This document shows, in pieces, positions 5,432-62,003 of a DNA stretch of 64,000 bases. This DNA comes from Dysidea avara (lineage: Eukaryota; Porifera; Demospongiae; Dictyoceratida; Dysideidae): positions 2,417,001-2,481,000 of the forward strand of contig NC_089284.1 of assembly GCF_963678975.1 (NCBI RefSeq). Reading direction: 5' to 3'. A program made the position numbers and the translations under genes. Numbering within the stretch: the first letter of the stretch is position 1; each line of letters starts with the position of its first letter. Under the pieces are notes generated by a model. The model saw only the letters and a program-made list of their open reading frames with translations, had not been told where the DNA came from and searched no databases.

Positions 5432-5633
5432 AAATGTGTTATTAAATCTATATCCTTTGTACATTTGGTGATAATCATTAGTTGATTGGTGTGCTTTTAA
5501 TTTGTGTAGTGGGCGGGGTGACGTCATTGTGTGTTATGATGGGCGTTTAAAAGAATTGTGACGTACGGAACTGGTGATGCATCAATATGTGGTATTATAA
5601 TAGACCGTCAATTGCTTCAGTTTGCTATGAAAA

Positions 5634-7600
5634 ATGATGGCAGGAATTCGAAGATGGAAACTATTTCTATGCCTTTCCTTCAGTGTCGTCGCTCTAATAC
5701 TTCTATTTGGAGAAACGAAATTTAGCTTTTCGTCGATACGGATCCCTGCATGCTTACAACAACCACAAGTTCAGGAGAAGATTCGATCCGTGGTGGTTGA
5801 TAGTGAAGTTAATGCACAGTTAATTGTAAAACCAGTGATATTTGTTGGTGGTGTGCCTCGCAGTGGTACCACGTTGATGCGAGTCATGTTGGATGCACAT
5901 CCAGATATTAGGTGTGGGGAGGAGACCAGAGTTGTTACACGCCTCCTAGCTATGAGATACAACTGGGAAGTACGGGATATAGAGCGGAGACGTCTTGATT
6001 CAGCTGGTCTCAACATGTCAGTATTGGACGATGCCACAAGAGCATTTATATCTCAAGTAATCGTAAACCATGGGCCACCAGCAGAGTATTACTGCAACAA
6101 AGACCCACTGAATTTTAAATACCTTAAAACACTGATAAGGATGTTCCCAAATGGTAAATACATACTGATGATTCGAGATGGCCGAGCTGTAGCACATTCA
6201 ATAGTAACTCGCAATGTGACCATCGGTGGAGTTGATACAAAGAGCCTATTGTCTGCTGTCTCATTTTGGAACAAAGCACTAACAACTATGTTGGAGCAGT
6301 GCAATGCTATTGGCCATAATAAGTGCTTATCGGTCTACTATGAGAAGTTGGTTAAAGATCCAGAGTTCTGGATGAGGAGGATATTGAGATTTGCAGGAAT
6401 ACCCTGGCATAAAAATGTCCTTCGACATCATGAGCTTATTTCATCAAAGGAAATCTCCCTGTCCAAGTAAGCAGTGGGAGTAGTAATAGCCATTTCTAGT
6501 GTTTAACTATAGAAAGTCATTTTCAACACAGTGTCAAGAATGTTATCATTACTGTATTGCATATGAATTATTTTTTTGGAGGGGGGATAGCTTTCAGATG
6601 AATCTTTGATGTAAAGTATACGTTTTTGCTGACTATGAATTGCACAAGTTACTGTAAACCAGGAAAAATCCGTCGTCAAATATTTTTCGTCACTGGCTAT
6701 ATCGGCAAAAATTAGAACTAATTATTTTTAACTATACGAATAATTTATGCATACAAATATTAACGTGCAAAAAAAATTTTTTTGCCGATTATGCCAACGA
6801 CAAAAATGTTATGTCGAAATTTTTTATAAGACAAAATTTTCCTAATTTTTGTTAGCTATGTAAATGTGCCATAACCATCAAATTCAAGACAGAGTCACAA
6901 TAGCTTGGATGAAAATGAAACATTTTTGAAGTGGTAATTTTCTTGGGATGCGATTATACCAACTCTGAGCTTAATCCATTGTAGGCGTCTTTGAGATATG
7001 CACCTTGAGATTTCAATTTATTTTTCTTAATTAGCTTTGGGAGTGCATGAAAACTTGTCTATGAATCTTCAAATTTTGGGAATGATGCAAGCATGCTCCA
7101 CTTTGTTCGAATTGGATAAAGAGCTATTGAGTTACATGATTTTCAAAAATTGTATGTTTACCAGGCAAACTGCTCTCGGAAGCTAGGTTACATGATAGTA
7201 AAATGCTTACAATCAAGATACTCTAATAGAACAGTCATACTCTAATAGGACTTTCAGCAAACTTATTGCAAACTTCTATACCAGTGCAGCCATTTCTTGG
7301 TTGTCATTTCACATCTGTCACACTAGCCATCTTTGGAAGCTACACTCTGTATAATCATCTGTTTTCTATTAGCTCGTAACTATAGAAAAATACTTACATA
7401 TGAACAACGTGTGTAGGACATGCTGTTCAGGTTTATTAGTGTGTGCCATTGTTGGTTTCAGGATGGAACCATCCACCAACCAAGTAAAGGAGCCCGTAAA
7501 CAGTAAGGCTATTGACAAGTGGAGACATGACATACCAGAAGAAATGCAGAAAAAGATGTATCGAACTGCTCCTTTGTTAAGCCAGTTGGGCTATAGCTGA
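5634..7600 (+). CDS. TPST: Protein-tyrosine sulfotransferase (TPST, copy B)
   Basis: Exons 5634-6466 and 7462-7600 (donor GTAAGC, acceptor CAG) give 323 aa. TPST transfers sulfate from PAPS to tyrosines of secreted and membrane proteins in the trans-Golgi. The sequence shows a single N-terminal membrane anchor (about residues 8-26), the PAPS loop PRSGTT (75-80), CGEETR with the catalytic Glu (E97), CNKDP with the partner cysteine (C154), the 3'-phosphate segment RDGRA (181-185), and the C-terminal SLSK / STNQVKEPVN / LLSQLGY blocks. All key motifs of the human enzymes are retained. It ends soon after the LGY block, without the longer vertebrate tail. ATG 5634 is directly followed by a second ATG (5637), and either could be used. 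Confidence 0.93.
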
Positions 7601-11097: not shown

Positions 11098-11222
11098 TAA
11101 TACGCATATGGTACGTACCATACGCGTATGCCTATACCGTACGCGTATGGTACGGAAAATCGTACCGTACGCGTATGGTACATACCATACGCGTACGGTA
11201 CAAAATACGCATATGGTATAGA
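11098..11222. repeat. Palindrome cluster (TACCATACGCGTATGGTA type), right copy
   Basis: About 125 bp with at least four tandem copies of the TACCATACGCGTATGGTA / TACCGTACGCGTATGGTA palindrome, including GGTACGGAAAATCGTACC, which also occurs in the left cluster. It ends with the inverse of the left cluster's first 20 bases. Non-coding. Confidence 0.65.
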
Positions 11223-11689: not shown

Positions 11690-14600
11690 TTAACTTATAT
11701 ATTGCATTAGTTGTCCTCTCATCTGATTGGCTAATTCATCAGTTGCCATATTTCCGTGTCGTTCCATGATGGATAAGAAGGTGTCAAAACTTTTAGCCTG
11801 GCCAATCTTAAGAGAAGTAGCTATCTTTCTAAGTACTAGTGAGGATGCTTCTGATTGTCCTCTTGCTTGCTGTATTGCCTCGTCATCCTCAAAGCTTATT
11901 ATACCTTCACTGACAAAATATTTGCTCAGATTTTTTATGGGCAGAACATTTATCAAACTAGCATAGTGCTTAGTGAACACTTCCAACTTTCTTTCAATAC
12001 CTACATACAAGTCATAAATACTTTAAATTTGGTAAAGTGAACATATTTTACTTCACCTGCTACAGTGGTACTATCATCTAATCCAGTTGATAGTAGATCT
12101 CTGTAGTAGCCAACTAACTGATCGGTCTCACCTGATGCAGAACAAAAAATGGTGTTTCCATAATATACCTCATCAAGAGTGATGTGGAGTTTAGTACACT
12201 TCGGACAGGGAACTAATAAGACTGGTCTCTTCTTCACTGCTGGCATGAATACCTTCATAATTTTATCCAACATCATCTTGATGTCACTAATCAGTTCCTT
12301 CCTCTCTTCAGCACAGTCCAAGTCATTTCTGAGTGGCATTGTGATTGTTAACTGGATACTTTCCTTCTCCACACATCGACTGATGTAGTATTTTTGGTGT
12401 GCCCCTAACTGTAGTTCTACCAAACCATGCCTGATCCTAGAAAGTGGAGTACTCAATACAATACCATTATATTGTGATATTTTACTCACCGTAACAGTCG
12501 ACTATTTTTCTCTACATTACGGCAGATACAATCAGCTATCAACTGGTTTAGGAGACTGATTGGAACAAAACCACTGGAAAATTTGAAGTAAATAATCCTC
12601 TCCTGTTTGGTGTTAGGAGGGTGTCTCCCAGCATTACAATTAAGAACAAGAGAAGGCACAATGAAAGTGTCACCACTTTCTGGCAGTGATGGGTAACCCT
12701 CTTCACTGAACCATGCTTCTTTAGTGATGCGAGCTATCAGATGAAAGTGCAACAGAATATCCACTACTTGTTGTTTAGCAATTTCAATTGTGCTGGGGTA
12801 ATCTGAGTGGAACTTGTCTAACATGTGTTGGATAAGGCTCTCATGAAGAATGCCATATTCAGTGAGCCGCTTCCATGACTCATCAAACCCTTTACCTCTT
12901 TTGTATGAATAAGCAGTCATGATATAGCTGAAGAGCTTAGCAAGCCAGCGTGGAGACAATATCACAAGATTCTTTAATGATTTAACTTCGCTGAAGTACA
13001 AGATGACGCGCTTCTCATGGAAGTATTTCAACACACCTTCAAACTCTGAGCTGTTTTCGGCTATAGAAAATGTACTTTCTGCAATAACATCAGCCATGTG
13101 GGATTTGGATATTACCTGCTCTTTGTGCTGCAAAAACGCACGTTCAATTTTGAGGAAAAAAATTGGTTGCTTTATTCTCAGTGAAGTGGCCGCTTTGACA
13201 GCAACACTCTTTAAACGTTCTATTTCTTCATCCCTACACTTGTTGCTGATAAAAAAGCAGAATTGATTTAGAGCATCCTCAATGCCCTCACCCATACCTA
13301 CTAAGTGTTGAGCATAAGGCTTGTCAGCAAGCTCCTCTATAAGCTGAGGCAAAATCATTTCCTTGGCAATCTTTCGAGCAACTTTGATGTCAGGATGAAG
13401 CTTATCAATGTGAGTACCAGCTAGTATAATAGGCGGATGTAATGGAGACAAGTCTACCTCAGTTCCCTCTACTGAACACATTGAATCAACTACTTGTATC
13501 CAGTAGTGAATACTGGAGATGTTGGTATGACATTCTGGGGGTGGAGAGGAAGTTGCACGGGGAACAATCACATCCATCAGCTTTACAGATGCATTGAATG
13601 TTATTGTTACTACCCCACTCTGTGAAATGAAAACAGAGTGGGTGTTATGGTAAATAATTTGGCCGGGGAAATCCCACAATGAGAGATTTAGACAATCTGG
13701 ATTATACATCTGGGAACGGTTGGCAAAACCTACCTGCATGTCTTGTGGGCGTGGCTCAGGAACATCTTTATGAATAGCAGCAGGAGGTGGGGCACTCTCA
13801 GAAGCAACATATCCACTGTAAGACAATGCCTTGGTCTTGACTGGGTTCAGTGGCATCATTTTTTTCACAGCATCAATTCTGCACTGGTCAATAAACTGAT
13901 GATGCAGGATATCAACTCTGTCAGAGTGGCTGATTTTGGTCCAGTTTTTGCAGTAAATTTTGCACACACCAGTATCAATTCCTTCAGTAGCAGATTGCCC
14001 TTCAATAAACTCCTCACCAAGAAATGACGAGATGAGACAAGTCTTCCCAGTGTTTTCTGCACCTACCAACAACAGTTGTAGATCCCGCGACTGAGCTACT
14101 CCTTCTTTCATGGCTAGTGAGAATGCAACCTTAATACTGCTATCATCAAGATAATGACCTGGGTAAGGAAATGCATGGGCTATATCAGCACATTAACCTT
14201 ACAGCATAACAACAGCTCACTTGATACTATACTGGTAATCCACTTGCTGACTTGTGATATTGGGGGACGTTTCTCTGGACGATCGTTCAAGCATGAAATT
14301 ACCAGCTGTTTTAGTGACTCATCACTTATCTGACCAATGTAGTGCTGACGCTTCTCAATTTCACTTAAGTCTATTCCAGTACCAGGATAAGGAATTTCTG
14401 TGTAGAAAAATGGTTCTGGCCATCTTTGGGTAATCATGTGACACATTATACAGCCAAACGAGAACACATCTGATGCAGTTGATCTTCCATAAAAATTATC
14501 CATGCCCAATACCTCTGGAGAAACAAAAGCTTTTCTTTTTTCCATTCTTCCATGTGTTCCAATCACCTTTACAGCCATGAAGTCGCAAATTTTGGCTACC

Positions 14601-15079
14601 AAGTTATTAGTCAAGACAACATTGTTAGAATGCAGGTTACAGTGTATCATCTCTTGAACATGGAGGTAATGGACTCCTCTACTGACATCTTGTAATATTG
14701 ACAACTTAACAAACATGGGAATAACGTCTGGATAACTCTCCAAGAACACAGTGAGGCTATATTCCATCAATTCTGTCACCAGTACCGGTAGTACAGTTTG
14801 CTTACTGGGATAATACACCCCTAACAGTTTCATCACATTCGGATGGACAAGATTACTGTAAAGCAAACATTGTTGCAGAAAAACTTGTTTCAAAAATTCA
14901 GCTTTATTTGATGATAAAGGTCCAGGATGCAACTCCTTAGCTGCGCACGTGATACCATTATGCTGTACCGCAAACGTTCTTCCAAAGGCCCCAGAACCTA
15001 ACTCACGATCAGCAAGTTCCACACCAGTTAGAATCAAATGCTCAAGACCTCGCTTCAGGTTGTTATTAATACTTGTCAT
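11690..15079 (-). CDS. Pseudokinase-Roc-COR-CARD protein (ROCO family)
   Basis: Four exons read leftwards, 15079-14221, 14158-12490, 12436-12057 and 12000-11690. They are separated by introns of 53-62 bp and join in phase to 1072 aa. Domains in order: a protein-kinase fold (about 20-285), a Roc GTPase (about 312-600) with P-loop GAENTGKT (319-326), WDFPGQ switch II (DFPG at 449-452) and THID (535-538), a COR domain with a PCPKC metal-like knuckle (about 600-960), and a CARD-like death fold (about 970-1072). The kinase keeps the glycine loop (GSGAFG, 28-33), the Lys of CAAK (48), the catalytic-loop Asn (153) and the Asp of DFM (166). It has HCN (146-148) in place of HRD and DFM in place of DFG, so it is probably catalytically weak or dead. 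N-terminal kinase, ROCO core and C-terminal death fold parallel the DAPK1 layout, but this kinase looks TKL/TK-like and there are no ankyrins. A role in innate immune or cell-death signalling is inference. Confidence 0.87.
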
Positions 15080-15218: not shown

Positions 15219-18200
15219 ATGTGCATTTTGTTCTTCGATTTTCAGCCAACCTCCGAAGCCAGTGATTACAGATTTATCCTAGCTTCAAACAGAGATGAGT
15301 ACTTTAACCGACCTACCGATTTAGTCAATTTCTGGGACGACAATTCGAGCATTTGTGCAGGTGAGAGAATCAAAAGTGTATCTTTCATGCTAGCCTAGCA
15401 CGAAGCAGCAGCATGGACGCGTTCATTTTTGTGGTAACACTGTTATCACGAGTTTCTACATAGTCACATTTGTTAAATAAAACTATTAAAGTATAAATAA
15501 AATTATTTAAGGGTCATTTCTTTAAACTCTAGTACCCTGTACTTTGCTAGCTTATACTCTGGTATGCATGTGGTTCCGTTGTTTGTGCGTGTGCATGTGT
15601 GTTTGCGGTGTTGTAAGCTAAGAGCATATGTGTGGCCACTGTTTTGGTGATTTTCTGTTTTTCATCGGAAAATTCCAAATGTAGAGTGTGGGCTGGTCAT
15701 TACCATTATCCATTTTCACTAGTACCTGCCACAATATAGCCAGCTAGACTTATTTTCATACCTCCAGGGCCTAATACTCTCTGCATAACAGGAAATTTGC
15801 TGAACTTCTCTAACTCAACATAGCTAGTTTGGCAACCAACATGTTACATATAGTCGTCCTTTGTCACATGATCAGTTCCATTCGAGGATCAATTTCTTAC
15901 TTGCAAACTTCATTCCATTAATCTTTCACATTCCCTAGGCTACTATGCACAAGGTAGCTGCTGTATTAGTGCAGCAATCTTGAAAACTGAACTGCACATC
16001 AATATTTGGTTAATCAGATGAAATAATGCTTTAATAATGGGGAAATATGTGTGGCAGTAAAAATACATGCGGGTGCTGATGAAAACAGAAAATCATTAAA
16101 TAGTGGCCTAAGAAGACATCCTATTAAAGTTCACACTACATATATCCACAAATTTTATGTGGTGGTTGCCGAATTTTCTCTGTGATTGTCCATACATATA
16201 GCACAGTCAAATTCCGTGAAACTTTGGTGCCATGTTAGCTCTGGCTTGTATGTAGAGAAAGGAATCAAATTTCAAATTCTTACTACACCTTAGTTAGACA
16301 AGTGAATCTGTTTGGAAGCCCATTGATTTATGTATGGAGTATTAATGACGAAACGCTAATGACAATCAAACATGAGGAACAGACCAGTAGGTCACTTTGT
16401 ACACAAATGACATGTTGGTGAATTACTACCATAGCCAGTTTAGGAAGGTGACATTATTATATGATACTTAATTGTGCAGACTTGTTTGGCCTCACCAATA
16501 TTACATTGATTTGATCTTACAAACATGCCTCAAAGTGACCCAAACCATTTTCAGTAAGTTTCAATTTTTTTAAATTTATTGTTTCAGTGATGCATATATA
16601 ATTAAGTGATACCTTCAGAGAAGCACAACTCAATAATGGCTATTGATACGGCAAGTTAGATCATGGACGCTGCTTTGGCTTATGATGCCAATTGAGTCCA
16701 GTGAATAGTAACACCCAATATGAGATCCACTATATTTTGTACTCTTTGCTTGAGTCCTACATGTGTCTTTTTATGTACTGCAGGAGATACAATGTGTACA
16801 TTATCTGGAGAGGGTGTACATCACCATTACAACTGCCATGCACGTACACATTTTAACACTTTAGTCATATGTAGCTACAGTATACATTACAATGTAGAAG
16901 GGATTTAAAAGTACACTATTATGGCTTTTGTTTCATTGTTTTGGTGTTTTGACTATATAGGTTATATTTTTGACCTACTTGGCATGACCATTATCATGAA
17001 TGTATAAAATGGCGGTTATCTTAGTGTAGCATTCAACTTTTCCATCACAGGTAGAGATCGACATCCAGTGAGAGGTGGTGGAACGTGGCTCGGTGTATCT
17101 ACCACTGGGAGAGTTGCAACACTCACAAATGTCCGTGTCTGTAATAGTGATATTAACTACAGTGCACCATCAAGAGGTATTACATCTAAGTGAATACAAT
17201 GGAACAGCTATTATTTGCAAAAAAAAGAAAGATTGCTCTATTAGAGTATTTGAATGTTTCTATTAGAGTGGGTGTTTGTTTTATTAGAGTAGTTTTAATC
17301 TGTTTCACCATTTAGCTATGCTTTTCCGTACACTGTAGAATTATGAAAATTTCTGAACATTATGTAGTCCCTAAGGAGTTCAGATAACTGGGGTCTCATT
17401 GTAGTCTTTGAATTCCATTCACATAAGTAGCCAGTGAAATATCCCCTGATGTTGTTTGCTGGTTGGCTATCTGAATTGTCTTCCTTTATTCAGCATTACG
17501 TTGTTGTAATTTTGCTCTCATTTGTTGTCATGGCATGAGCTAGATGACCCAATTTGTTGTTACAATAAAACCTGCTGCTAAAAATCTGTTGCAGCGATTA
17601 TAGTATGTCGTGAGAATATGCTTTTACAAATTTTGCTTTTCACTAATGAAGTGTTTCCGTAATCAAGATACATGGTAGTGTGTCGTGTGGCCCAAGAAGC
17701 CAGTGCACCACACCGTGAGTATATTGACAGGAAGAAAGAAAACGTGATTTTCACACATATGTAGCTCTGTGATCCCTTATCCGATTGGAACCAAATTTGC
17801 TACAGAAGTTCCCACCAGGAAAGGGAGTCTACATACCAAATGTGAAGAAATTGCCCCAGCCATTTCCGAGATATGAGCAGCCAAAGTTTCATTTTAATTT
17901 TTTCGTTATTTTCTTCTACTTCTTTTCGCATGCTTTGCAAAATCTGCCATAAAACACCAATATGTGCTCCAATCAGGCTGAAATTTGGCACATTTGAAGG
18001 GCTCATTAAAGCGGATCTCATTAGCAAGTTTGGTAGGAATCCAATGAACATTCACGGAGTTATGACTGATTATTTGCATAAAATAAGGTAAAACTTCTGT
18101 CACACCTACAAGGTAAACTCCTTGGAGGAATGAGTTGAAAACCTACTAGTCCATTACTCCATTATATAATATATACTAGCACTGGTACCTGCCCTACGTG

Positions 18201-31540: not shown

Positions 31541-34500
31541 TCAGTTGGATTGCTTCTTAAATCTCAGCTGAAAGGAAAGAATGATAATTTGGAGTGTGCT
31601 ATAAATACCAGCCTTCTTACCTCTTAGAATCACGTAAAGAATTTCTACGCTTTAGCTTAAACTCCTTCATAAATTCTGGCACCTCTTTGTTGGCTGTACT
31701 GACATTCTTTCTTCTGCTACTTGGTGAAGATGTAGTGGTAGTAGTAATAGTAGTAGCACTAGCTCCTTGTCCTGTTCGGGTTGATAGCATGCTACGATAG
31801 TTAGGTTTGTCTGATGACGTCTGCTTGTCTATTTTCACTGCAGCGGATTGCTACAAGGAAATAAATAAATAAATCACATGATAATAGCACTCTACTGTAG
31901 TATGGTAAACATGATACTGTACACACAACAGTTATATGTACCTCTTTAGTGTCATCAGTAGGCGAGGGTGTGCGTTTTTGTTTTCTCTTTTCTAACAATT
32001 TTCGTTTCCACTCAGGAATGCTGTCTGGAGTGGGACTTGTGACTGAAGCCTCACGGCTTGTCCTTTCCACTGACAGCTTCTCTGTCTTCTTCTGCTGTGC
32101 TAAATCTTTCTTCCATTTGGGAACAGAGTCCTCTGAAGAGGTACTAGCAGTCCTTGAAGTGGTAATGACTTTAGAAGAAACAGCAACAGTCTTTTTGTCT
32201 TTACTTGCAGTAGTTGTTTTCACTGGGCTTGCTTCAGCTTCCTTGGCGGGACTCTTCTCCTTATCCTGGTCCCCTGAGGGTCGTCTAACATCTTGTCGAA
32301 CTGAGCTAATGGTTACCTCTACTGAGGGCTTCTTCTTCAATTCTGGCTTTGAAGAGGATGTGCTGGGTTTAGTTGTAGCACTTGGAGACTTCAAATCTTC
32401 TAACTTTGGTTTGGGGGAAAGTGGTGGCTTGTCTTGTAAAGGACTTGGTGACTTACTCTTTTTGTCTCGCACTTCTTTGGGTTTTTGTTCCTCTTCATCC
32501 TTTTCTTTCTGCTCTTCTTTTTTATTGTCCACTTTCTCATCATCTGTTTTCTTTTTGTCATTATCAACCATTTTATTATCATTCGTGGTGGTCTCTTTAG
32601 CATCCCTTAATCTCTCTCTACGACTAACATAAGATGTAGTGGTGGTAGTCTCTTTGGAGGATGACAATGGTGGCTTCTTCAGGTCAGTAGTATGCTGTCT
32701 CCTCTCCTTCAGTTTCTTCTTCCACTCTGGAATATCTTCTTCTATGGGAGCCTTCTTTGCTACACTGCTGGTTGCAACTGTTGATTTCTTCAACTTGATA
32801 TCAGCAAGTGGTTTGGATGATTCAGTTGAAGCACTCCTTTTTGGGCTATCTTTTACTCCCATTTGCTTCTTTTCTTTTTCCTTTTCTTTCTCCTGTAAGC
32901 GACGCTCTTTACGCCGCTGTGCTTCCAACAACCATGCTGGTTTGTCTTCAGTTGGTGGCTTTTTGTCTTCCCTAGATGGTGTGTTCTTTTTCTTATCAAC
33001 AGCAGCTTTAGCCAACTCTGCACTGTTCTCACGGTGAATTCCAGATGACTTTGGTTTTATTGGCTCATCTTGTTCTTCGTCTATAGTTGATTCCTTGGGT
33101 GGGAATTCCTCCAATGCAACCTCACTAGTGCTGTCAATCTTTTTGTCACTCAATGGATCAGCAGTAGTGTCTTCAATACTGACTGGCTCATTTGAGGATA
33201 CATCTGGTATCATAACAAAGTCATCAATACTGAAAGAGCTCTTTTCTTTTGTCTCCTTGTCCAGAGTAGACACAATTTCTGAGTCATCAAATAACAGTTC
33301 GTCATCAAACAATGATGATCTTTCTTTCCTTTTCTCAACATCTACCAGCAAATAACCACCAGATACTGCTGATTCCTTCATCACAGAGTCTTCATCTGGC
33401 TTCTGGTCAATTTGGAACAACTCTTCCTCAGACTTGGACCTCTTGCCTTCAAAGATAGATGTTGACCTCTGCACTTGTGCTTCATCATCAAACAGTGGTG
33501 AGCCAGGTGATGTTGGTTTCTTAAACAGTTCAGGAGATGGAGATTCCTCTTTGGTCTCCTCTGGCTTTGCAGCTTTTTCTTCAACTACAACCTCCTTGTC
33601 TTCTTCAACAGGCTCCTTGTCTTCTTCAACAGGCTCCTTGTCTTCTTCAACAGGCTCCTTGTCTTCTTCAACAGGCTCCTTGTCCTCCTCAACAACTTTC
33701 TTCTCTTCCTCCTCAAAACTTTTCTTATCTTCATTTTCTATAGAAGGCGATGGGGTTGATGGTGACTTAGGTTTGCCAAACAATGGGGACTCATCTTCAT
33801 CAGCTAAAGGAGAAATAGGCTTCACTTCTTTTGCCTTCTTTTCAGCTAACACTGTACTTGGTGACTTGCTGAGATCCAAGATTTCTAGGCTTGCATCTTT
33901 CTTTTGTGACTTCTTTGTAGTTCCAAACAGTTCATCATCCTCGTCGGACTCTTGGTCAAACAGTGATCCACTCCTCTGTACTCTTGTGGTTGGTTCCTCA
34001 CTGGCAAACAATTCATCATACACTGTTTTCTTGGCAGTGATGGTTGCAGCAGTAGTGCTATCTTTCTTTATATCAACGTCTCCAAACAGTTTGTCATCTT
34101 CATCAATCTCTTCAAATAATGGTTTATCATTTTTAGCAGTAGCAGCTACCTCATAGTCATCAAATAAATTCTTTTTATCTTCAGTGGTCTTATCAGTTTC
34201 CATTGCTTCTGTCTCCTTGCCCTTTGCAGTGGTGGAAGCTACTTCATAATCATCAAATAAAGACTTCTTTTTGTCCTCTTTAGTGTCACTAGTCTTATCA
34301 ACCTCCAGTACTTCTTCTGTGGACTTCTCTTCCTCCCATAAAGAAGCTTTTTTCATTGTTGTGCTGTCTTCTTCAGAAGATGTCTTCTTACTAGCATCTT
34401 CTTTTACTTTGGTCTCCTTCTCCTCTTCCTTTTTAGCTTGAGAGCTACGAGCATTTTGTTCATAGCTGGTAAGCCTGTCAGCAATGCCCGACCGTTTTGA

Positions 34501-37500
34501 ATAAGAGCTTTTGGGTGGGGCAGTCTCCACTGGTTTCTGTCTCTCGAAGAATGCCTTTCCTGCTAAAACACGTGATGGGCTCTTTAGATCATCAGAACTA
34601 GATGTGTTACGATCTCGCATGTTCGGTTTTGCAGCAGTTATTTCAGGTTTCTTGTGAGGTGTTGGTTTGTTAGATGGTTTGGTACTTCCTATGCTATCAT
34701 CCCCAGAAGCCTTAGCATTGGCTGCAGCATCCTCTTGTGAGTACTTCTCAAAGATTGCATCGATATCAGCTGAACCTAACAAGACAGATCGATGGCCAAA
34801 CAGTGGAGGAGGATCCTTGTACAAGGAGCTGTCCCTTTCACCTGGTGTCTTCTCTCTGGTTGGTGGAGTAGCTCCCCCTTTGTGTGGGGTAGAGGTTTTC
34901 TGAATACTGGAGTTACCGTGTGTGGATGGCCCAAACGATTTGCTGGGGGAAGCAATGGTTCCACTGCTGCTAACTTCAGAAATATCCTCAGATAAGATGC
35001 TATCTTCCTCTCCTGTAGTTGATGAAGAAGCAATGGCTGGCTTTGCTCTGACTGGTGGCTTTTTGTTACCACCACCGCCAATTTTCAGTCCAAACTTTTT
35101 GCTGACCTTTGGAGAGCCTTTGATTGAGTCGTCATCTGAGCCTTTCCGCTCATTGAAACTTCTGCGTCGGAACAGAAAGCCACCAGTTTTTTCTTCCTTT
35201 TCATCTGTGCTTGGTTTAGTAGGAGTTTTAGGCTTCGGTTTAGTGACCGGTGGCAGTTTTGGTGAATCACCATCAGCATGCCTTGATTTGCCAAAACTAC
35301 GACGTGGACCATGCTTCAGTGCACGAGCCAAGCCAGCCAATGGATTGCTAGACTGCTCCTTCAACTTGGCAATAATCTATGTGATAACATAACAACATAC
35401 ATAATCCACTCTGCATACAAAACACACAACACCATCACTAGTTACAATAGATCACCCACAAAGAATCAGCTTAACACAACACTGAACATGTAAAACATAA
35501 CCGAACAATCACAAGCCAACTACATAAACACATATCCATTACTATAAGCCTAACAGCCCATTCATCTCATTAGGTGACCGTTGACAATACAACATGTTTT
35601 GAATTTCTTAACAAAAGGTAACAATGTAACAACAGCTAGCTTACTTGTCTTTGCCGTTCATCTGGTGACAGTGCCAGGATCTGCTCTTCAGCATCTAGAG
35701 TAGCAGTACCACTGGACAACTGATAACCACCATAACCTGATAGGGAAGAACAATACATTACTGATTGATTCTCAAAAACATGTAGTGGTCTGGAATATAT
35801 ATATATATATATAAATATATATAAATATAGTGGGACACAACCCTCTAAATGATAGGAAGAATAACTATACACCTCTGTTTCAGACACCTTAGGATCATTT
35901 ACTAGTGTAAATACAAGATAAGTGTCCTGATTCCAGGGGTATACATCTATCGTATACAATAGTGGAACCTGTCTAAGCTGGTCACTAAATTTCTTGCCCT
36001 AAATGGGCAGGTAACTGCTTTAAACAGGTAACAAAATTCTCTCTATACAGGTCACCATAATACAAAGTCATCAAGGTGTCAACATGTTAGGGTGTTTTCA
36101 CTGCTGCAGTCCTACAATTCAAGTGCTTTCTGTACAGACTTATAGAAGGTCCAGCTACACACTAAAAATAGTCAATTTTCCTGGCTGACAAGAAATAAGA
36201 ACAATACGGTAGTCAACCCCCTAAAATGTTTTGCATTCCACCATCTGCAGCAAATTTACACTAGAATAATGGCAATAGCCAAATAACTGACAAACAATAT
36301 ACTGTGTAGAGGAAAACTTTGGCAAATTTAAGCTAAATGTTTAGCTATAAAGATGCTAATCTCAGGCGCTACGACTAATTGGTGAGTTAAACTTCAGTGA
36401 ATTTGTAGAAATCGCTAAATTCGCCATAGTTCTCCCCCACCAAAGTTTCCCTCTATACGGTAGTGGCACCTTTTCAACAAATACTAAATTTCTTTTATAA
36501 AATACTGACTGCTGAAATTCCTATCAGTAGTTGTACTACTATTAGCCTGTATATCATGAGCTAGTGAGCTATGAATCACTGAATTCAGTACTGTACATAA
36601 AAATAATTCCAGATTGAAATGAGATAAATAGGACATTTGTATATACAGTAGATCAGTGGCACAAGCACGTAAAAAATTCATATTTACAGATTCCAGACAG
36701 GCGAGCTTTCATAGCACTACACAACTGTACTAACAACTGCATGATAATATCTTTGCAGATTAGAATGAAAATTTGGTATATATACCTTAAATTGATATTT
36801 AATAAAAGATGGTGATGAAATTTTTGAAATTCCCACAGACATTAGGCAGAAGTGACAATTTATTTTTTTTTTTTTGCAAAAATTGACATTAACATTACAC
36901 ACACACACACACGCTTACTATTACTCCTATTTGTCCTAAGATGGCTCTCAGACTTGGAGACAGCCAGAGAAGGTCGACACTGAGTCACATTAGCTACTTT
37001 ACCCGGTAACCTCCGCTGTTGGGCTCTTGCCAAAATGGCACGATCATATGCAGCATGTGAATCTAGCCGGCCACGTGATTCCTAGAATAACAAAAAGATA
37101 ACAAAGAGGTTCAAGAGCTCCAAATCAAGAGAAAAAACATCTTGTAAAATCCATATAACTCACTTAGCACTACCTCTTTAATAAGGTAGCCGCATTATAT
37201 ACATGCAGTGGTAATATCCCAAACAGGTGTACTTCATGAACTCATTAATACAGCCACATCATTATAGTGGCCATGTCAAGTGAGTCCCCAGCACAAATAA
37301 GGTGTACTATATGATGAACGGCTCTCATAATGGAGGCTGTGTTATTGGGTAGCACTTTGTAGGAGGCCCCATTGATAGTGCTACATATATACACACTTCA
37401 CTGAGTACTCAAGCAATAACAAAATACATCAGTTTAGCAAAGCTTATTCTGCCATATAATATATGTAGTTTACTTGTAGTACACAAAACTGGATTGGGAA

Positions 37501-60683: not shown

Positions 60684-62003
<1,320 letters not shown>

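Follow-up and report, generated by a model that had tools for sequence, protein, structure and literature searches.

A gene in a 64,000-nucleotide stretch of the Dysidea avara genome (the window; contig C13, positions 2417001-2481000) encodes a ROCO variant that is neither a DAPK1 nor an LRRK. An apparently TK/TKL-like kinase domain that has lost the catalytic Asp precedes a Roc GTPase, a COR region, and a C-terminal domain with a predicted CARD fold, and the gene belongs to a family of such genes in this genome. The reading we favor, with a probability of roughly 60%, is that the product would act in the manner of RIPK2, as a scaffold or sensor that works without catalysis and is switched by its ROCO module, with the pseudokinase at its N-terminus and a CARD that signals to caspases. 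If this is true, animals have placed a ROCO GTPase, a module known from LRRK2 and DAPK1, directly between a kinase fold devoid of catalysis and signaling through CARD and caspases.

Gene structure and domain composition

The gene occupies positions 15079..11690 of the minus strand, and a splice model with four exons and without an internal stop gives a 1078-aa product (Table 1). A preliminary description of this DNA had proposed a 1072-aa product with three short introns; the introns were recovered, all GT-AG and of 44, 53, and 56 bp, and the length of the product is corrected. Pfam HMMs matched the N-terminal region as PK_Tyr_Ser-Thr (aa 24-278, E 7.3e-29) and Pkinase (E 1.1e-28), followed by Roc (E 1.2e-10, best stretch aa 321-361) and COR-A (aa 624-796, E 9.9e-10, 38.9 bits against a cut-off of 35.3). 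The Roc domain contains the motifs GAENTGKT at 325, DFPGQ at 455, THID at 541, and SNK at 597; the first corresponds to the P-loop and the second to switch II with its DxxG, and THID and SNK likewise count as Roc motifs. A Roc GTPase followed by COR in the Pfam order, together with the P-loop, DxxG, and THID motifs, places the gene in the ROCO family.

The C-terminal domain was examined by both sequence and structure. A Pfam scan of this domain itself returned neither a CARD nor a Death match, and a PDB sequence search with the domain alone gave seven matches, all with E 0.4 or worse. Its AlphaFold model had a mean pLDDT of 94.7. Foldseek with this model gave no match under E 0.001; the top fold matches were Apaf-1 CARDs, and the matches listed were almost all CARDs. 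A relative of the domain elsewhere in the genome (L015, 40% identical) scored 26.5 bits against the Pfam CARD cut-off of 23.9, and among the four relatives of alignment A1 that were scanned for CARD, one scored above the cut-off, two were weak, and one had no match. The C-terminus is thereby predicted to have a helical death fold of the CARD type. Thus the order of kinase, Roc, COR, and CARD given in the preliminary description, including an intact-looking Roc and a CARD-like death fold at the C-terminus, agrees with the HMM searches, the Roc motifs, and the predicted fold.

Table 1. Features of the ROCO gene, in window positions
Feature	Position	Strand	Basis
Exon 1 (start codon and kinase-like domain, aa 1-292; Pfam kinase match aa 24-278)	14203..15079	-	splice model and Pfam
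Beta-3 Lys48 (CAAK), kept	14936..14938	-	splice model and kinase alignment
HCN in place of HRD, aa 146-148; catalytic Asp replaced by Asn148	14636..14644	-	kinase alignment
DFM in place of DFG, aa 166-168	14576..14584	-	kinase alignment
Intron 1, 44 bp, GT-AG	14159..14202	-	kinase/Roc gap similarly short in paralogues
Exon 2 (Roc GTPase and COR-A, aa 293-848)	12490..14158	-	splice model and Pfam
Roc P-loop GAENTGKT, aa 325-332	14040..14063	-	motif reading
Roc switch II DFPGQ, aa 455-459	13659..13673	-	motif reading
COR-A, aa 624-796	12648..13166	-	Pfam
Intron 2, 53 bp, GT-AG	12437..12489	-	splice model
Exon 3, COR-B-like region, aa 849-975	12057..12436	-	position after COR-A and paralogue conservation, without Pfam match
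Intron 3, 56 bp, GT-AG, phase 1	12001..12056	-	splice model
Exon 4, predicted CARD (aa 976-1078) and stop codon	11690..12000	-	predicted structure and fold matches

The degenerate kinase-like domain

The substitutions of HRD by HCN, without the catalytic Asp, and of DFG by DFM, without the Gly, that had been read from the DNA beforehand were confirmed at aa 146-148 and 166-168. In addition, the position of the alphaC Glu, which we assigned by comparison with Src numbering, is presumably occupied by Gln70, whereas all seven relatives in the kinase alignment have Glu at this position. The beta-3 Lys48, the DFG Asp166, and Asn153 of the catalytic loop are retained. By these motifs, the domain is a pseudokinase in the sense of a kinase fold that has lost the HRD Asp and/or the DFG or beta-3 Lys. 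The earlier proposal that the ATP-site elements are kept and the catalytic Asp is gone is therefore correct for the Asp and only partly so for the elements; with the alphaC Glu replaced as well as the DFG Gly, the ATP site has suffered more than that description implied. Since Lys48, Asp166, and Asn153 remain, the domain may still bind ATP or have some activity left. Nearly all of the best 60 of 1875 PDB sequence matches were TK/TKL kinases such as LIMK1, Src-family kinases, and IRAK4. A structure model of the kinase built from eight sequences had a pLDDT of 46.6, below usable quality.

A family of kinase-Roc genes

The genome searched comprised 550.8 Mb in 108 contigs and contains at least 150 COR-A places and at least 150 places related to the window CARD. 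These counts are lower bounds, since the window's own COR-A is absent from the 150 COR-A places listed. Of the 150 listed COR-A places, 24 are followed on their own strand by a listed CARD-like match no more than 5 kb downstream, and for none does such a match lie on the opposite strand. The coordinates of kinase, Roc, and CARD matches were then compared for 21 of 134 kinase places and 29 of 82 Roc-COR places. A kinase exon adjoins Roc at ten or more loci, with a CARD downstream at nine and an apparently in-frame caspase at one (Table 2), so that the one-off architecture implied by the preliminary description no longer holds. Kinase, Roc, and a downstream CARD were placed on the same strand by coordinates in the window and at C11:438-441k, C11:471-474k, C12:19.92M, C3:17.33M, and C9:26.24M, and by reading of the sequence at C8:32.10M, C14:10.34M, and C11:523-528k, where the kinase is truncated.

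Table 2. Kinase motifs at the ten loci where a kinase exon adjoins Roc
Locus	HRD position/DFG position	Reading frame	Other
Window (C13)	HCN/DFM	open in what was read	
C11:438k (L059)	HRD/DFG	broken in COR-A, COR-B, and CARD in the assembly	
C11:471k (L060)	HRD/SFE	open in what was read	
C12:19.92M	HRD/NFR	in-frame stop	
C3:17.33M	HRN/DFV	open in what was read	
C3:17.28M	HRD/DFV	open in what was read	apparent caspase instead of CARD
C9:26.24M	HGD/DFN	open in what was read	
C8:32.10M	HCD/no DFG	N-lobe in different frame	
C14:10.34M	HAD/NFG	stop after NFG	
C11:523k	HRD	breaks off after catalytic loop, remainder missing	

The intact HRD/DFG pair is absent at nine of these ten loci, L059 being the sole exception. 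The motif losses differ among the loci, and the paralogues would constitute a natural set for asking what role a kinase fold plays after catalysis has been lost. At all five loci that were open in what was read (the window, C11:471k, both C3 loci, and C9), the kinase is degenerate. A stop, frameshift, or truncation was encountered in what was read at five of the ten, which indicates that some members of the family are pseudogenes or carry assembly errors. The TGA in the CARD match at C9 is probably the stop codon of that gene, because CARD residues 1-98 read open.

Two kinase matches with altered motifs were left out of the ten-locus count, one (L066; HCN, no DFG) located 9 kb from the nearest Roc-COR and the other (L064; HRN, GFG) 22 kb away. 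At three further Roc-COR loci (L067, L070, and L073), no kinase was present in the upstream DNA read, and the genome contains about 14 more Roc-COR loci, of roughly 49-65% identity, beyond those read upstream. On C2 (L070 with L035) and C5 (L067 with L041), a Roc-COR-CARD locus shows no kinase over the 1.4-1.5 kb read upstream of Roc; a kinase match is located 22 kb upstream on C2. Other Roc-COR genes are built differently: judged by eye, L017 and L026 have ankyrin-like repeats upstream, and downstream matches include Death (L009, E 1.3e-6) and CARD (L026, E 1.2e-7; L017, slightly below the cut-off). Between 5.80 and 6.16 Mb on C8, open frames of 738-990 aa each contain two to three matches to the window kinase and are possible tandem kinase proteins.

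The window protein could instead be a kinase that is catalytically active despite its unusual motifs and is regulated by GTP, with a CARD that serves localisation only. Atypical kinases that lack a canonical HRD or DFG exist and work, and the good scores of the kinase fold and the three retained residues are compatible with this idea, as is the presence of both HRD and DFG in one paralogue, L059. Against it, the window gene has substitutions at the catalytic Asp, the alphaC Glu, and the DFG Gly alike, the intact motif pair is missing at nine of ten loci through differing changes, and L059 is itself encoded by a gene with broken frames in the assembly. We therefore consider an active kinase unlikely.

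Selection and divergence by domain

Pairwise dN/dS values against the window gene, obtained with sets of partners that differ from domain to domain, were 0.08-0.17 for COR-A (eight pairs), 0.11-0.25 for COR-B (seven pairs), 0.16-0.36 for the CARD (seven pairs), and 0.21-0.33 for the first half of Roc (five pairs). Of seven kinase pairs, six gave 0.25-0.46 at a dS of about 1 to 1.6, and dS was saturated in the remaining one. COR-A is under strong constraint. When kinase and COR-A were compared at the same locus, the respective values were 0.33 and 0.12 at C11:471k, 0.46 and 0.10 at C9, and 0.29 and 0.17 at C3:17.33M. As its dN/dS is the highest of the domains yet not near 1, the kinase is the fastest part of the protein and not a neutral one.

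These values bear on a second alternative, that the kinase exon is a decaying leftover and that the selected unit is Roc-COR-CARD. Such decay could account for the high dN/dS of the kinase relative to the other domains, for the stops, frameshift, or truncation in several kinase exons, and for the Roc-COR-CARD genes without a nearby kinase on C2 and C5. However, the kinase dN/dS against the window stays well short of 1 at considerable dS, the window kinase exon is fully open with canonical splicing, and measured to L066, the window kinase (dN 0.50) has evolved only slightly faster than that of L059 with its HRD and DFG (dN 0.46). Decay of the window kinase thus appears improbable, to about the same degree as an active kinase.

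Change within the kinase is unevenly distributed. In the recent pair L059/L060 (C11:438k/C11:471k), dN was 0.04-0.08 in five of eight kinase regions and 0.15 in the N-lobe, while the activation segment had a dN of 0.96 and a dS of 0.84, and the alphaG region, which is partly unalignable, had a dN of 0.79 with dS saturated. The divergent activation segment of L060 is not a frameshift artefact: aligned with L059, its DNA shows point changes and gaps rather than a shifted copy, with well-kept sequence on either side. The dN/dS of the whole kinase in this pair was 0.79 (bootstrap 0.51-1.14), which is no proof of positive selection. Since this segment is high in dS as well as in dN, its replacement or a conversion of its flanks would explain the pattern as well as positive selection would. 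The highest dN was located in the activation segment or alphaG in five of six pairs, which have sequences in common; the exception was L062/L065, with its maximum in the N-lobe (0.28) and a dN of 0.24 in the activation segment.

A sister gene with an apparent caspase in place of the CARD

At C3:17.28M, no CARD follows COR-B among the CARD-related places listed. The COR-B exon at this locus ends in a phase-1 donor, AG|GTAACT, as does that of the window gene, and an acceptor (TTTTGCAG) approximately 332 bp past the donor opens an in-frame ORF with a caspase domain. The first part read matched Peptidase_C14 with E 5.8e-18, and a genome search located the full domain at C3:17275515-17276201 on the same strand (E 1.4e-55) in a 402-aa open frame, as one among 89 caspase places listed in the genome. 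Judged by splice phase at this single locus, where the predicted intron spans ~332 bp, the gene apparently fuses a caspase in the place of the CARD. Such a sister gene would make a direct test of Roc-COR gating of CARD assembly possible. A dense caspase array is present at C9:3.10-3.50 Mb, with 31 of the 89 listed matches, some of which may be parts of one gene.

The apparent fusion also bears on the direction of signaling. CARD proteins without an effector, such as ARC and ICEBERG, are known as inhibitors, and the CARDs of both are among the fold matches of the window CARD; the window protein could likewise be a decoy that inhibits rather than activates CARD-caspase assembly. We regard this as quite improbable, since an apparent caspase at the CARD position in a sister gene points to activation and not to inhibition. 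Least probable is a gene model that fused neighboring kinase and Roc-COR-CARD genes, which was set aside: intron 1 of the window gene is GT-AG and in phase, and a similarly short gap between kinase and Roc matches recurs at many loci (34-54 bp at the window, C12, C9, the two C3 loci, and C11:438k; 57 bp at C11:471k; 44-47 bp at C8 and C14).

Comparison with known proteins

The window protein resembles DAPK1 in having a kinase ahead of Roc-COR, no LRR, and a C-terminal death-fold domain. DAPK1 carries ankyrins, whereas no ankyrin match was found in the 1078-aa window protein at E up to 1, the kinase ending at aa 278 and Roc starting at aa 321; the window kinase is also degenerate and, by the best PDB matches, appears TK/TKL-like, and the predicted C-terminal domain is a CARD. 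Membership of DAPK1 was rejected on the absence of ankyrins between kinase and Roc, the absence of a Death match, and the CARD fold. With LRRK1 and LRRK2, the gene shares Roc-COR plus a kinase but differs in having the kinase first, and membership of the LRRKs was rejected because the kinase precedes Roc, none follows COR, and no LRR was matched. Both contrasts, with DAPK1 (no ankyrins, a CARD for Death) and with LRRK (kinase first), had been drawn in the preliminary description and are upheld by the Pfam matches, fold matches, and domain order. A gene of the LRRK order, judged by eye, is present in the same genome (L006). In the relevant part of PMC6337361, DAPK1 represents the third ROCO group, the only one with the kinase first, and combines a calmodulin-dependent kinase with a Death domain; GTP on its Roc controls the N-terminal kinase domain, which is a precedent for regulation in this order, and the LRRKs have the kinase after COR and LRRs before Roc. 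The section of a broad survey on ROCOs with an N-terminal kinase mentions neither a combination with CARD nor a degenerate kinase.

By analogy, the closest functional parallel to the window gene appears to be RIPK2. This protein has an N-terminal kinase fold and a C-terminal CARD with no Roc-COR between them and with its catalytic motifs kept, whereas the window gene has Roc-COR between kinase and CARD and has lost the catalytic motifs. The kinase activity of RIPK2 is described, in the part of PMC6120666 concerned, as dispensable, with RIPK2 in a scaffolding role. In Trichoplax, ROC-COR is reported in combination with CARD and with death domains, and unlike in the window gene, no kinase is named in that combination in the pertinent section (PMC4104024). 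Aplysia is reported to have ROCO proteins that carry TIR or Death (PMC9334734). The sponge Amphimedon has 357 NCOA6-clade TRADD-N proteins, most of which contain death-fold domains and some a kinase or caspase domain (PMC8195603); this expansion is built on TRADD-N, and the section that describes it makes no mention of Roc-COR. Kinase-like domains in immune receptors are described in parts of two papers on plant tandem kinase resistance proteins (PMC11153570, PMC10260399). Since those proteins differ from the window gene in architecture and kingdom, the analogy is functional only. The idea of a decoy has been applied to plant tandem kinase resistance proteins.

ROCO-CARD proteins and kinase-first ROCOs are each known. 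A literature search conducted mostly outside subscription journals, and on parts of the texts, found no description of kinase-Roc-COR-CARD, with a degenerate kinase or otherwise, or of the caspase variant. The Dysidea avara genome is reported at 575 Mb in 15 chromosomes with many NLRs, and COR appears in the legend of the NLR figure, in the relevant part of PMC12909245.

Proposed mode of action

The occurrence of kinase-Roc-CARD at nine loci and of an apparent caspase for CARD at the tenth favors a death or immune adaptor. This agrees with the innate immune or cell-death adaptor suggested in the preliminary description, which had not named the RIPK2 parallel. In the scaffold or sensor that we favor, the pseudokinase would bind a ligand or partner without phosphorylation, perhaps through the fast-changing face formed by the activation segment and alphaG. 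Binding would shift the nucleotide state or the dimer of Roc-COR, and the CARD thus exposed would nucleate or join a CARD assembly and recruit a CARD-bearing caspase or adaptor, leading to cell death or an immune response. The working mode would be that of RIPK2, a kinase fold as scaffold plus a CARD, with a ROCO switch inserted between the two and with the CARD, or in one sister a fused caspase, as output.

A broader proposal is that these genes are lineage-specific animal receptors in which a diversifying pseudokinase acts as an integrated decoy or sensor, a ROCO switch replaces the NACHT/NB-ARC ATPase, and a CARD or fused caspase provides the output, in parallel to NLR inflammasomes and the apoptosome. 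We offer this tentatively and consider it rather doubtful, if somewhat less so than an active or a decaying kinase.

Other features of the window

A TANGO2 homologue (PF05742, E 2.5e-15; 15219-15398, plus strand) lies head to head with the ROCO gene and begins 139 bp from its start codon (15079, minus strand), and a shared promoter is possible. Directly downstream of the ROCO gene, positions 11100-11215 contain a palindrome-rich repeat of TACGCGTATGGTAC-like units, which translations around 8.2-8.5 kb resemble. Two sulfotransferase-like genes (Sulfotransfer_3, E 2.4e-20 and 1.3e-49) are located on the plus strand at 846-1682 and 5631-6470. A Lys/Glu/Ser-rich open frame of 1191 aa (31804-35376, minus strand) had no Pfam match at E 0.001, and a long array of short-unit repeats at 61300-61700 has open frames on both strands.
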